Positions 46,583 to 52,806 of a DNA stretch of 64,000 nucleotides are shown in pieces. The notes beneath the pieces were generated by a model. It ran no database searches, was not told the DNA's origin, and was given only the letters and a program-made list of their open reading frames with translations. The stretch is taken from NCBI RefSeq assembly GCF_000152965.1, contig NZ_CH902583.1, positions 1,575,072 to 1,639,071 of the forward strand, written 5' to 3'. The position numbers were made by a program, and so were the translations under genes. Numbering within the stretch: position 1 is the first letter of the stretch; each line of letters starts with the position of its first letter. The stretch comes from Roseobacter sp. MED193 (GTDB lineage Bacteria; Pseudomonadota; Alphaproteobacteria; Rhodobacterales; Rhodobacteraceae).

Positions 46583-46611
46583 GTGATCACAGGTAACCAC
46601 CCAGTGATCAC
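46583..46611. promoter_or_regulatory. Paired GTGATCAC operator upstream of sdhC
   Basis: Two identical 8-bp palindromes GTGATCAC at 46583-46590 and 46604-46611, centres 21 bp apart (two helical turns), 115-143 bases upstream of the sdhC start. The same pair with the same spacing lies 113-141 bases upstream of sucC. This suggests cooperative binding by one dimeric regulator of the TCA operons. Confidence 0.7.
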
Positions 46612-46623
46612 AAAAATGTCTTA

Positions 46624-47412
46624 CTAAAATTGTTTTGCAGAATCAGCCCTCCCTAGCCGAATTTCCTGTGCTTCCCCCTGAAACGCGCGGTTTAGAGGCC
46701 GGTTTAGCGGCAAAAGCGATGCGCGATTAACCGGCTCAGGGGCGGGTTGGATTTGCGCCGTTTTGCGCGCTACCTCACGGACCAGCTTGCGACGAATTTT
46801 CTCTGGGTAATCGCTAAAACTGCGAGCGGTTTCGACAAAAGCGCCCTCGCCCTGGATCACATGTTCATAGAAATAGGCCGTGAGTTCCGGCTCGCTTTGC
46901 TCAATGGCGATGGCATTCACCGTGACCTCCGCCTGCCGCATCAAGCGTTTGAGCGTGCCGGGTTCCACCCCCTCGTTTGAGGGTCCGTCGCCGGACAGAT
47001 CAATCACTCGGCGTTTGCAGTCTGGCCCCTCGGTGATCTGGGTCAGGCCCAGTAACAGCGCCTCACCCAAGGCAGTGGAAAAATTGCGCCAGGGTCGTGG
47101 GACAGTTTCCACCGCCCTGGCCAGTGCCTCGACCTCATCAAAGGTTCGGGTTGGCGTCCAGGGGATGGAAATCTCTTGCCGCGCCCGTCCGGACCATTGG
47201 ATCAGAGTCACCTGCGCCTGGGCATTTACCAGGGCCTCAGACACCACCCCGTCACGCAGACCCGCTGCCAGACCGTCCATCTGGATACGGTATTCAGTCG
47301 CATCTACCGAACCCGAAACATCCACCGCCAGCACCAGCGCCAGATCACAGGCCCAACCTGGCAAGGGCAAGGCAAGTAAAACAGCAGCAAAGAGTCTGGC
47401 TTTGAACCTCAT
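46624..47412 (-). CDS. DUF1194 domain protein (von Willebrand factor A fold, secreted)
   Basis: A 262-residue protein with an N-terminal signal peptide (cleavage near LPGWACDLA) and a VWA-like domain whose metal-site motif DxSxS is intact as DVSGSVDATEYR. It also has IDLSGDGPSNEGV. It matches DUF1194, which is common in Rhodobacterales with unknown function. A single GTGATCAC lies 63-70 bases upstream of its start, and the mch terminator separates it from the gene ahead. Confidence 0.88.
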   Translation of the reverse strand: MRFKARLFAAVLLALPLPGWACDLALVLAVDVSGSVDATEYRIQMDGLAAGLRDGVVSEALVNAQAQVTLIQWSGRARQEISIPWTPTRTFDEVEALARAVETVPRPWRNFSTALGEALLLGLTQITEGPDCKRRVIDLSGDGPSNEGVEPGTLKRLMRQAEVTVNAIAIEQSEPELTAYFYEHVIQGEGAFVETARSFSDYPEKIRRKLVREVARKTAQIQPAPEPVNRASLLPLNRPLNRAFQGEAQEIRLGRADSAKQF

Positions 47413-47474
47413 CCAAAAACTCTAGGCAAGAAGATGCCCTGTCGTCACCCCTGATGTAGGACAAACACAGAGCT

Positions 47475-47482
47475 GTGATCAC
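47475..47482. promoter_or_regulatory. Single GTGATCAC site upstream of the DUF1194 gene
   Basis: One copy of the palindrome found in pairs before sdhC and sucC, 63-70 bases upstream of the start codon. No partner exists 21 bp to either side. Confidence 0.4.
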
Positions 47483-47487
47483 CTTCG

Positions 47488-47524
47488 AAAAAACCACAGG
47501 CCAGGCAGCTGTCTGCCTGGCCTG
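47488..47524 (-). terminator. Intrinsic terminator of the mcl2-nnrU-mch gene group
   Basis: CAGGCCAGGCAG (47497-47508) and CTGCCTGGCCTG (47513-47524) form a perfect 12-pair stem; on the minus strand it is followed by TGG and six T. It is 31 bases after the mch stop codon. Confidence 0.85.
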
Positions 47525-47554
47525 CTTAAAAAACCTGGTTCAGCCCCATGGGCG

Positions 47555-50245: not shown

Positions 50246-50709
50246 CAGGAAGCCTCCAGGTTATTTTGTTGCGCAAACGGGTATAGATTCGGGCGAAAAC
50301 TTTCAAGAGCATTCATGCCGCATCGCAGAATCGACCCTGCGACACATATTAGACACAGTGCTAAGCCGCCTCGAAAGAAGGATATTTTTCTTAAGCATTG
50401 ACTTCAGTCAGCCAGGCCCGGCGGATTAACTCTTTTTCAAAGTGTCCTTGGCACAGTTTATGTATCGCAGCGGCCGTGTTGGCCGGAGACCCCATCGGGA
50501 TCAAAGCCCTTATTTTTAGGGCCTAGGTTCACAAAGTGATAGGTCTCGGCGCGGGCAAAATGCCCTTTTGGAAAGACTGGGCCAAAGGCCTGCATAACCA
50601 TTACGTCAATTGAATCCGGTCCTGATCTGGTCGGTTCGAAAGAGAGGTCACGAGACCGCTCTCTCTCAGGTCAGCCGTTCCGCAAAGGGTAAAACCCAAG
50701 GAGAAGACG
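50246..50709. other. 464-base gap between mcl2 and a secreted protein gene
   Basis: A divergent region that should contain both promoters. TTGCGCAA (50269-50276) lies just upstream of mcl2, and GGTC-acga-GACC with flanking AGAG/CTCT (50641-50662) forms a hairpin before the plus-strand gene. An A/T-rich stretch near 50380-50440 could hold a promoter, but I could not define one. No gene or known RNA was recognised. Confidence 0.45.
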
Positions 50710-51027
50710 ATGTTTAAAACTGTACTTGGCCTATCTGCACTGGGCTTTACCGCGAGCCTCATGGCCACCTCCCCTGCACTTGCACAGGGCCGCAATTGCG
50801 CCCCCCGCGAGGTTGTCGTTGAACGTCTCGCCGAGAAATATGGCGAAAGCCGTCAGGCCATCGGCATAGGCCAACAAGGCATGGTCATGGAGACCTTCGC
50901 CTCTGCCGAAAGCGGCAGCTGGACCATCACTGTCACCATGCCCACCGGCATGACCTGCTTGATGGCATCAGGGCAATCCTTTGAAGCCCTGGCTGAAGCA
51001 GTGCCCACCACGGATAACGACGCCTGA
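50710..51027 (+). CDS. Small secreted protein of unknown function (105 residues)
   Basis: A Sec signal peptide ends near SPALAQGRN. The mature part contains NCAPREVVVERLAEKYGESRQAIG and ends with MTCLMASGQSFEALAEA, with two cysteines that may pair. The pattern is common in Rhodobacterales, but the function is not known. GGAGAAG precedes the ATG. It lies between mcl2 and mdh in its own transcription unit. Confidence 0.85.
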   Translation: MFKTVLGLSALGFTASLMATSPALAQGRNCAPREVVVERLAEKYGESRQAIGIGQQGMVMETFASAESGSWTITVTMPTGMTCLMASGQSFEALAEAVPTTDNDA

Positions 51028-51601
51028 CCCCCGTTTCCAACAGGGCGCCCCCCTTCTGCACATGTGCCGCAACCTCTAATGTAGGCCTAAAACCTTCGCA
51101 TGCCCCTTCGAAAGTTGGGGCGGCGCGATAGGTGAATCCCCCCCCATATACATGGTCTAAGATTACATGGTCTAAGATCTTGTGACCTGTTTGCAGAGGT
51201 GCATCCAGAGGAAGGCACCGTACGCTCACCACAATTCCTCATCATGCCCTGTTATGGCCCGCCATTGCCCCACAAGTGGCGCGGCCGCAACAGCGGCTGA
51301 CCTCCCTCCTGACAGACCCAGAATCGACACTTGCTATGGGATAGCGGCGCATTTTGTTGCCCTGCGAAACCGCGGTGACATCTCCCAAATGCGCCTCCTT
51401 TGCTGCTAAATGCGAAAAACATAGCAACAACTGTAGCCAAAACTGATGGCCCCATCCCCCTTATTTGCAAGCCTTTTTGACCTCCTCCACCCCGGAGATT
51501 CGCTCTCCTCTTGCGATATGCCGCAGCGCAGAACCCTTGCGCGGGCGCGCGTGAGGGCGTAGGCATCCCCCCAATTTCAACCGGACCGGAGAGAAATCCC
51601 C
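51028..51601. other. 574-base gap upstream of mdh
   Basis: Contains a direct 15-bp tandem repeat (51149-51178). Several short open frames exist in it, but none has a credible start site or protein character. The mdh promoter and leader should be in the last 150 bases; GGAGAG precedes the mdh ATG. No known RNA gene was recognised. Confidence 0.45.
51149..51178 (+). repeat. 15-bp tandem repeat upstream of mdh
   Basis: TACATGGTCTAAGAT occurs twice in direct succession (51149-51163 and 51164-51178), centre spacing 15 bp. It is about 420 bases ahead of mdh. Confidence 0.85.
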
Positions 51602-52564
51602 ATGGCCAGACCCAAGATCGCGCTAATTGGCGCAGGCAACATCGGCGGCACGCTCGCCCATCTCGCAGCAATCAAAGAACTCGGCGACGTCGTCCTGTTT
51701 GACATCGCGGACGGCCTTCCCCAGGGCAAAGCGCTCGACATCGCCCAATCCGGCCCTGTTGAGAAAATCGATGCGGCCATGTCTGGCTCCAGCGATTACT
51801 CTGCCATTGCTGGCGCCGATGTCTGCATCGTTACCGCCGGTGTCGCACGTAAGCCTGGCATGAGCCGGGATGACCTGCTGGGTATCAACCTGAAGGTGAT
51901 GAAATCTGTTGGTGAAGGCATCGCGGCCCACGCACCAGACGCCTTTGTCATCTGTATCACCAACCCGCTGGACGCGATGGTCTGGGCGCTGCAGAAATTC
52001 TCTGGCCTGCCCACCAACAAGGTCTGCGGCATGGCTGGTGTGCTCGATTCTGCGCGTTTCCGCCACTTCCTGGCCGAAGAATTCAACGTCTCCATGCGTG
52101 ACGTAACCGCCTTTGTTCTGGGCGGCCACGGTGACACCATGGTGCCGTCAGTGCGTTATTCCACCGTTGCCGGTATCCCGCTGCCCGATCTGATCGACAT
52201 GGGCTGGACTACCCAGGAGAAACTGGACGCTATGGTTCAGCGTACCCGTGACGGTGGCGCCGAAATCGTTGGCCTGCTGAAAACCGGCTCCGCCTTCTAT
52301 GCGCCTGCGGCCTCGGCGATTGAAATGGCCGAAGCCTATCTGAAAGACCAGAAACGCGTTCTGCCCTGCGCCGCCTACTGTGACGGCGACCTTGGCGTCA
52401 ACGACATGTATGTCGGCGTGCCCACCGTGATTGGCGCCGGCGGCGTTGAAAAGGTTGTCAACATCAAGCTCAACAAAGAAGAGCAGGAAATGTTCGACAC
52501 CTCTGTTGCCGCGGTTCAGGGACTGGTTGACGCCTGCAAAGGTATCGACGGTTCATTGGCCTAA
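51602..52564 (+). CDS. mdh: Malate dehydrogenase
   Basis: A 320-residue NAD-dependent malate dehydrogenase of the LDH-like bacterial type. It has the dinucleotide loop [12 protein letters not shown], the NAD aspartate in VVLFDIADG, the substrate arginines in [20 protein letters not shown] and the active histidine in [11 protein letters not shown]. It opens the TCA gene run on this strand. A terminator follows, so sucC has its own promoter. Confidence 0.98.
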
Positions 52565-52604
52565 CCCATCCAGCAGCGGTATGCGCCGCAGCCAAAAATA
52601 ATCG

Positions 52605-52632
52605 TGCACGCTCCAGTTGGGGCGTGCATTTT
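52605..52632 (+). terminator. Intrinsic terminator of mdh
   Basis: TGCACGC (52605-52611) pairs with GCGTGCA (52622-52628), followed by four T, 40 bases after the stop codon. Confidence 0.75.
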
Positions 52633-52777
52633 CATTTGCCCCGACCCCACCTTGGGCCGACTTTGGGCATAGGCCAGGACGGCCGCGCTCCGTCGCCTGC
52701 GTCGTTGCCTTCTTGCACATGTCGTTTTTGGCCGGACGATACGGTACGAATCAAATGAATTAGGCATTTGTAAATTT

Positions 52778-52806
52778 GTGATCACACGCTCGAAAGCCGT
52801 GATCAC
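52778..52806. promoter_or_regulatory. Paired GTGATCAC operator upstream of sucC
   Basis: GTGATCAC at 52778-52785 and 52799-52806, centres 21 bp apart, with symmetric flanks (TGTGATCACA in the first). The sites lie 113-141 bases upstream of the sucC start. Sequence, spacing and distance agree with the pair before sdhC. Confidence 0.7.

Follow-up and report, generated by a model that had tools for sequence, protein, structure and literature searches.

Putative tandem operator pairs at the sdh and suc operons

The stretch analysed here, a 64,000-nucleotide (nt) segment of the Roseobacter sp. MED193 genome referred to below as the window, holds the sdh and suc operons of the tricarboxylic acid (TCA) cycle on opposite strands. 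The exact arrangement GTGATCAC-N13-GTGATCAC occurs twice in the window, once before sdhC and once before sucC. These putative operators and the genes that follow them, some recognised from the translations of their open reading frames (ORFs), are located as follows.

46604..46611, minus strand: sdh operator site 1 (distal), GTGATCAC, exact match
46583..46590, minus strand: sdh operator site 2 (proximal), GTGATCAC, exact match, 114 nt before the sdhC start codon
46085..46468, minus strand: sdhC, first gene of the sdh operon, with Sdh_cyt and, above its cut-off, succ_dehyd_cytB
41834..46074, minus strand: rest of the sdh operon, sdhD (45703-46074), sdhA (43885-45690) and sdhB (41834-42613), ORFs named by recognition of their translations
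52778..52785, plus strand: suc operator site 1 (distal), GTGATCAC, exact match
52799..52806, plus strand: suc operator site 2 (proximal), GTGATCAC, exact match, 112 nt before the sucC start codon
52919..54112, plus strand: sucC, with ATP-grasp_2 and Ligase_CoA above cut-offs
54666..60284, plus strand: sucD (54666-55550), sucA (55813-58776) and sucB (58788-60284), ORFs named in the same way and probably in one operon with sucC

An earlier note on this DNA had placed GTGATCAC pairs with 13-nt spacers at both operons, and all four of its coordinates are borne out with exact copies; its distances from pair to start codon, 115 nt for sdhC and 113 nt for sucC, were one too long in each case. The centres of the two sites are 21 base pairs (bp), or two helical turns, apart, and the sites would thus face the same side of the DNA. 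Seven exact copies of GTGATCAC are present in the window, compared with a mean of 0.81 and a maximum of 3 in 100 shuffled versions. The three copies outside the pairs lie at 8578 and 55044, both in long ORFs, and at 47475-47482, 62 nt upstream of a DUF1194/VWA gene whose end is near the sdh operator.

In the whole genome (G000; 4,674,070 bases), the sdhC and sucC pairs are the only exact N13 pairs. The genome-wide scan that the earlier note had proposed hence yielded no other such pair, and no glut of pairs in unrelated coding regions. Near-matches are common: when up to three mismatches are allowed, the whole genome contains 70 N13-pair matches per strand vs. 4 for the reversed control. A third exact pair, at G000:C1:1837937 and with a spacer of N16, was taken as chance because its second copy falls inside long ORFs, as was an N13 pair with one mismatch at C1:1345961, which is also inside long ORFs. 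A search for GTGATCACA produced 52 strand-wise listings in the genome, of which 51 (50 loci) were checked with a rough ORF test, C3:18382 being left out; most lie in long ORFs. Besides those at sdh, at suc and at the candidate regulator gene described below, the sites at C1:107270, at C1:2556491 and at window position 47475 lie outside any ORF of 80 codons, and the one at C1:2261053 is at the start of senC. The first of these (G000:C1:107270, L179:1501) is located 114 nt upstream of a gene recognised as rpsF-like.

The pair is conserved well beyond this genome. From a larger number of named sucC loci in public genomes, 80 were kept, Phaeobacter, Ruegeria, Sulfitobacter, Roseovarius and Paracoccus being represented, and split into the 30 nearest (81-95% identical) and 50 more distant ones. 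With at most one mismatch overall, the pair precedes sucC in 29 of the 30 nearest loci, or in 30 of 31 counting the window, and the spacer of these 30 pairs is N13 in 28 and N12 in 2. We located sdhC in 21 of the 31 sources and found the pair at 19 of them, the remaining two (L034 and L043) keeping one exact site. In the 50 more distant loci, the 450 bp upstream of sucC contain no exact site. L082, titled Jannaschia, has a sucC that is only 70% identical and is without a site. In the family as a whole, one or more exact pairs (spacer length 8-18 nt), usually two, are present in 359 of 394 genomes, and the reversed control was found in 0 of 394. Of 36 pair loci that were fetched, 18 are upstream of sucC and 16 upstream of sdhC, while two, both with 10-nt spacers, are at neither; every fetched pair whose spacer measures 12-13 nt (34 in all) is located at one of these two genes. 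Among 289 genomes sampled across the class, the N12-13 pair is present in 4/4 family members and in 2/285 outsiders. Absence from related genera, which the earlier note had named as a reason to abandon its proposal, is therefore not what we observed: the pair is widespread at sdhC and sucC of the family.

The A/T array between operator and core promoter

Downstream of both operators the sequence shows a helically phased alternation of A/T-rich and A/T-poor segments. The arrays and the proposed core promoter elements of sdh are located as follows.

46488..46582, minus strand: phased A/T array from the sdh operator to the core promoter (+1 to +95 past site 2), from periodicity analysis
52807..52856, plus strand: phased A/T array that follows the suc operator (+1 to +50), from periodicity analysis
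46519..46524, minus strand: likely -35 of sdh, GTGACA, a role judged from the conserved position of GTGAC
46497..46502, minus strand: possible -10 of sdh, TAAAAC, 16 nt past the -35, read from the sequence

Using 83 promoters (48 suc, 35 sdh) aligned on site 2, we found that the A/T fraction rises to approximately 0.9 and falls to 0.2-0.3, repeating every 9.5-10.5 bp depending on set and region. The array extends from +1 to about +50 in the suc promoters and to about +95 in the sdh promoters, where it is weaker at the far end. In both sets, none of 2000 jittered controls reached the power seen at 10.5 bp. This power was 0.54-0.70 for suc and 0.81-1.23 for sdh on the array side, compared with 0.09 (still above its controls) and 0.04, respectively, upstream of the operator. 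Every promoter correlated positively with the mean of the others (48/48 suc, median 0.50; 35/35 sdh, median 0.44), at a mean sequence identity of only 35% in suc and 30% in sdh (26% and 25% when shuffled). With 167 intergenic windows as controls, 65% of the suc and 60% of the sdh promoters individually scored above the 95th percentile of periodicity. Among sucC promoters, the median periodicity was 7.51 in those with the pair (n=48) vs. 4.87 in pairless members of the family (n=21; p 4e-4), and 3.87 in 50 other alphaproteobacteria.

By analogy with a described promoter, the probable role of the array is to curve the DNA or to provide docking sites for the alpha C-terminal domains of RNA polymerase. 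PMC4081817 describes a promoter with phased A-boxes, proposed to dock alpha C-terminal domains and curve DNA, whose effect did not depend on any of the DNA-binding proteins tested there. The phased A-tract/UP-like promoter of Helicobacter pylori sabA described in that paper likewise has A/T boxes, spaced at 10-11 bp, ahead of the core promoter; the present array differs in starting at a tandem operator and in holding its phase with that operator across the family. One could regard the array as a general promoter property, UP-like or providing curvature for RNA polymerase alone, and unrelated to any regulator. The result reported for the A-box promoter fits this explanation, as do the pairless sucC promoters of G195, G101, G109 and G227, which keep a strong periodicity (12.4, 9.1, 7.6 and 7.6). 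Because some pairless promoters score this high, the array may not depend wholly on the regulator. Against a purely general role, the phase counted from the operator agrees in 48/48 and 35/35 promoters, and periodicity is much weaker upstream of the operator, in the 167 intergenic controls and at the 21 pairless sucC promoters. We therefore treat a general array as a possibility to be taken seriously, albeit a somewhat doubtful one. We consider it an even call whether AkgR-type operators form a fixed composite element, in which the 21-bp tandem operator is followed by a phased A/T track that curves or wraps the DNA and brings a regulator about 100 bp upstream into contact with RNA polymerase, the same protein repressing its own gene from a single site in the core promoter of that gene. 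Under this reading it is the phase of the track, not its sequence, that is conserved.

GTGAC begins 58-59 nt past site 2 (counted from 0) in 21 of the 35 sdh promoters. The distance from the centre of site 2 to the sdh -35 is approximately 62.5 bp, near six helical turns, which would bring operator and -35 onto one face. In 16 of the 48 suc promoters a CGTTT block lies 44-45 nt past site 2 (again counted from 0), and a promoter search in these 48 sequences gave no clear -35.

The candidate regulator and its co-occurrence with the pair

Imam et al. 2015 reportedly characterised AkgR of Rhodobacter sphaeroides as the product of RSP_0981 and as an activator of TCA genes. PMC6365646 gives GTGATCAC as the motif of the R. 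sphaeroides transcriptional activator AkgR, and PMC4344238 names sucCD, sdh and sucAB as predicted targets of RSP_0981, a GntR-family protein. The same motif, sdh and suc targets and a GntR-family candidate are all found here, which supports the suggestion of the earlier note that AkgR might be involved. CceR, also a reported regulator of TCA genes in R. sphaeroides, including those for succinate dehydrogenase, differs in belonging to the LacI family and in its predicted motif, [AGT]GTT-N6-8-AAC[ACT] (PMC4344238, in excerpt). The letters of GTGATCAC, compared at the pair sites only, do not fit this motif; of the two published motifs that the earlier note had singled out for comparison, that of AkgR agrees and that of CceR does not. 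The regulon is one already described in R. sphaeroides, and the present operons are probably a new member of it. Added here are the strict family-wide tandem spacing, a self site in the regulator's core promoter and the phased A/T array, of which we found no description in the literature searched (a search that excluded the primary AkgR paper).

A related arrangement is known from Pseudomonas simiae. Its GntR-like protein PS417_07240, encoded with a deoxyribonate cluster and 32% identical to AkgR, has GTGATCAC near its own start, at -47 to -40 (PMC6365646, in excerpt). There the site is single and serves local control of the catabolic cluster, with no TCA operons in the part of the account used here. 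In G539, which belongs to another family, an exact GTGATCAC-N13-GTGATCAC (L274) immediately precedes a GntR/FCD gene with 30% identity to the candidate described next; this gene lies between others recognised as TonB-receptor-like and SDR-like.

The genome contains 19 FCD-domain loci (approximately 3.4 kilobases (kb) each), and only one of them, G000:C1:1926671, holds any exact GTGATCAC. One copy there ends 10 nt before the ATG of a gene for a 221-residue protein, and the following ORF contains another. The protein, encoded approximately 288 kb beyond the window, has GntR and FCD domains above cut-offs, and its best match among solved structures is McbR (4p9f, E 9e-21). Its neighbours resemble, as recognised from their translations, a SprT-like gene, a GNAT gene and accA. 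On the same contig in G208, G063 and G294, the candidate gene is 13-20 kb from the pairs, as would be expected from the closeness of the tags RSP_0981 and RSP_0974-6. This linkage and the co-occurrence described below are indirect support only for a possible orthology of the candidate and RSP_0981. We consider this protein the likely regulator of the pairs in this genome. A further FCD-domain regulator gene lies in the window itself (3690-4067), with no GTGATCAC in its locus (L128).

The candidate was the only regulator profiled family-wide. A strong match was defined as E <= 1e-60, a cut-off chosen after we saw that no best hit fell between 4e-75 and 1.6e-59. Co-occurrence was tallied by hand, G388, which was unlisted in the regulator search, being taken as without a match, and genomes at least 90% complete were counted as complete. 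Among the 394 family genomes, 349 have both the regulator and the exact pair, 7 the regulator only, 10 the pair only and 28 neither. For the complete genomes these numbers are 319, 3, 3 and 22 (Fisher 1.5e-28). Among the complete genomes with the regulator only, G040 and G291 carry a sucC pair with one altered letter, and sucC was not found in the third (G155). We could locate sucC in 21 of the 22 complete genomes that have neither, and an exact site within 400 bp upstream was found in 0/21; two of these 21 promoters carry a single site with one mismatch. In the class-wide sample, the regulator (E <= 1e-40) occurs in 4/4 family members and in 2/285 others, which are 38-44% identical and have no pair.

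Alternatively, the pairs could be bound by another GntR/FCD paralogue or some other protein recognising GTGATCAC, with the candidate merely co-inherited. Several FCD proteins can use GTGATCAC, as its ties to the Pseudomonas protein (PMC6365646, in excerpt) and to the gene in G539 indicate, and the genome's second match to the candidate, C1:2222477, is a 39% identical paralogue. The locus of this paralogue (L136) has no exact site, the candidate alone among the 19 FCD loci has one nearby, and FCD genes are still present in 23/25 complete pairless genomes, so that loss of the pair does not follow a general loss of FCD genes. Even with the three complete genomes that have the pair and no strong match to the candidate, we find this alternative improbable.

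Self site, probable feedback and proposed mechanism

The regulator gene appears to be a target of its own product. We surveyed 33 family genomes including our own (the 30 best regulator matches and three more) and found an exact GTGATCAC upstream of the regulator gene in 31. This self site starts exactly 13 nt past TTGA[CT] in 29 of the 31, and 12 and 15 nt past it in the other two; the first ATG follows 0-10 nt past the site in 30/31. Three divergent orthologues (47-50% identical) keep the 13-nt arrangement of TTGAC and site. The self operator is likely placed between the -35 and the -10, overlapping the expected -10. Binding at this position should block transcription of the regulator, and the arrangement suggests that the regulator represses its own gene. 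It also suggests a leaderless regulator mRNA.

TGTGA and TCACA are half-sites of CRP, and CRP sites have a 6-nt gap between the halves. Since TGTGATCACA resembles joined TGTGA half-sites, and the letters TGTGA and TCACA are both present, a CRP/FNR-type protein might be thought to bind here; the half-sites abut, without the gap of CRP sites. Moreover, GTGATCAC is tied to GntR proteins in the excerpts of PMC6365646 and to the promoter of a GntR gene in this genome, and those of PMC4344238 predict no CRP analogue for R. sphaeroides. Binding by a CRP/FNR-type protein is thus highly unlikely.

A perfect TGTGATCACA is also found at G000:C1:2261053-2261062 (L254:1254-1263), at the start codon of a SenC gene and upstream of a divergent histidine kinase. 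The kinase resembles RegB, a name given by recognition, kinase domains and SenC having been found. Ten of 12 genomes of the genus retain the exact GTGATCAC at the senC start, and the other two have it with one letter changed. Among six other family genomes it is absent from five, and G004 has a copy elsewhere. Within the genus, this site may link a redox regulator to AkgR.

From the sites, their conservation and their co-occurrence with the gene, we regard it as very probable that an AkgR-type GntR/FCD regulator, in this genome the 221-residue protein, uses the pairs as tandem operators, with array-assisted activation and self-feedback. Each GTGATCAC palindrome would bind one regulator dimer, and ahead of both the sdh and the suc operon two dimers would occupy the same side of the helix, 21 bp from each other, much as the earlier note had envisaged in inferring a dimer-of-dimers regulator that coordinates succinate and 2-oxoglutarate metabolism. 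The phased A/T array would join the pair to the core promoter, by curving the DNA or by docking alpha C-terminal domains, and the bound dimers would activate from approximately 100 bp upstream. At the single self GTGATCAC between -35 and -10, binding would instead block transcription and result in negative feedback.

Several observations, in addition to the strongly periodic pairless promoters, weigh against this explanation. Ten genomes, three of them complete (G019, G114 and G256), have the pair without a strong regulator match. The association also reflects few evolutionary events: on a sucC tree of 44 labelled rows and 3 outgroup rows, with G040 and G291 scored as paired, an independent-loss test found that the pair changed 5 times and the gene 6 times. 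The contrast test had a single contrast on well-supported branches, or five when every branch was counted, and thus had no power. The sucC of Roseovarius sp. 217 (L028), the one exception among the 30 nearest loci, has no exact site in 21 kb and a different upstream gene, although it may be a second sucC copy. An exact self site is found in 0/7 genomes that have the regulator and no exact pair. Five of these seven (L235, L237-L240) show TTGAC at about the same place, and because TTGAC is retained without the exact self site, it is more likely a -35 than a second operator half. In G338 (loci L245 and L218), the 47% identical orthologue has TTGAC-N13-GTGATCAC at its own promoter, yet the sucC of this genome is without a site, a hint that the self site could predate the pair at sucC.

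In a large family of bacteria, two operons central to the TCA cycle are apparently wired to one regulator by a strictly spaced tandem operator, and knowledge gained in R. sphaeroides should consequently transfer widely across the family. The self site in the core promoter illustrates how one protein could activate its targets yet limit itself. The array, in turn, would be a concrete case of promoter DNA kept for its shape, in phase with the site of a regulator.

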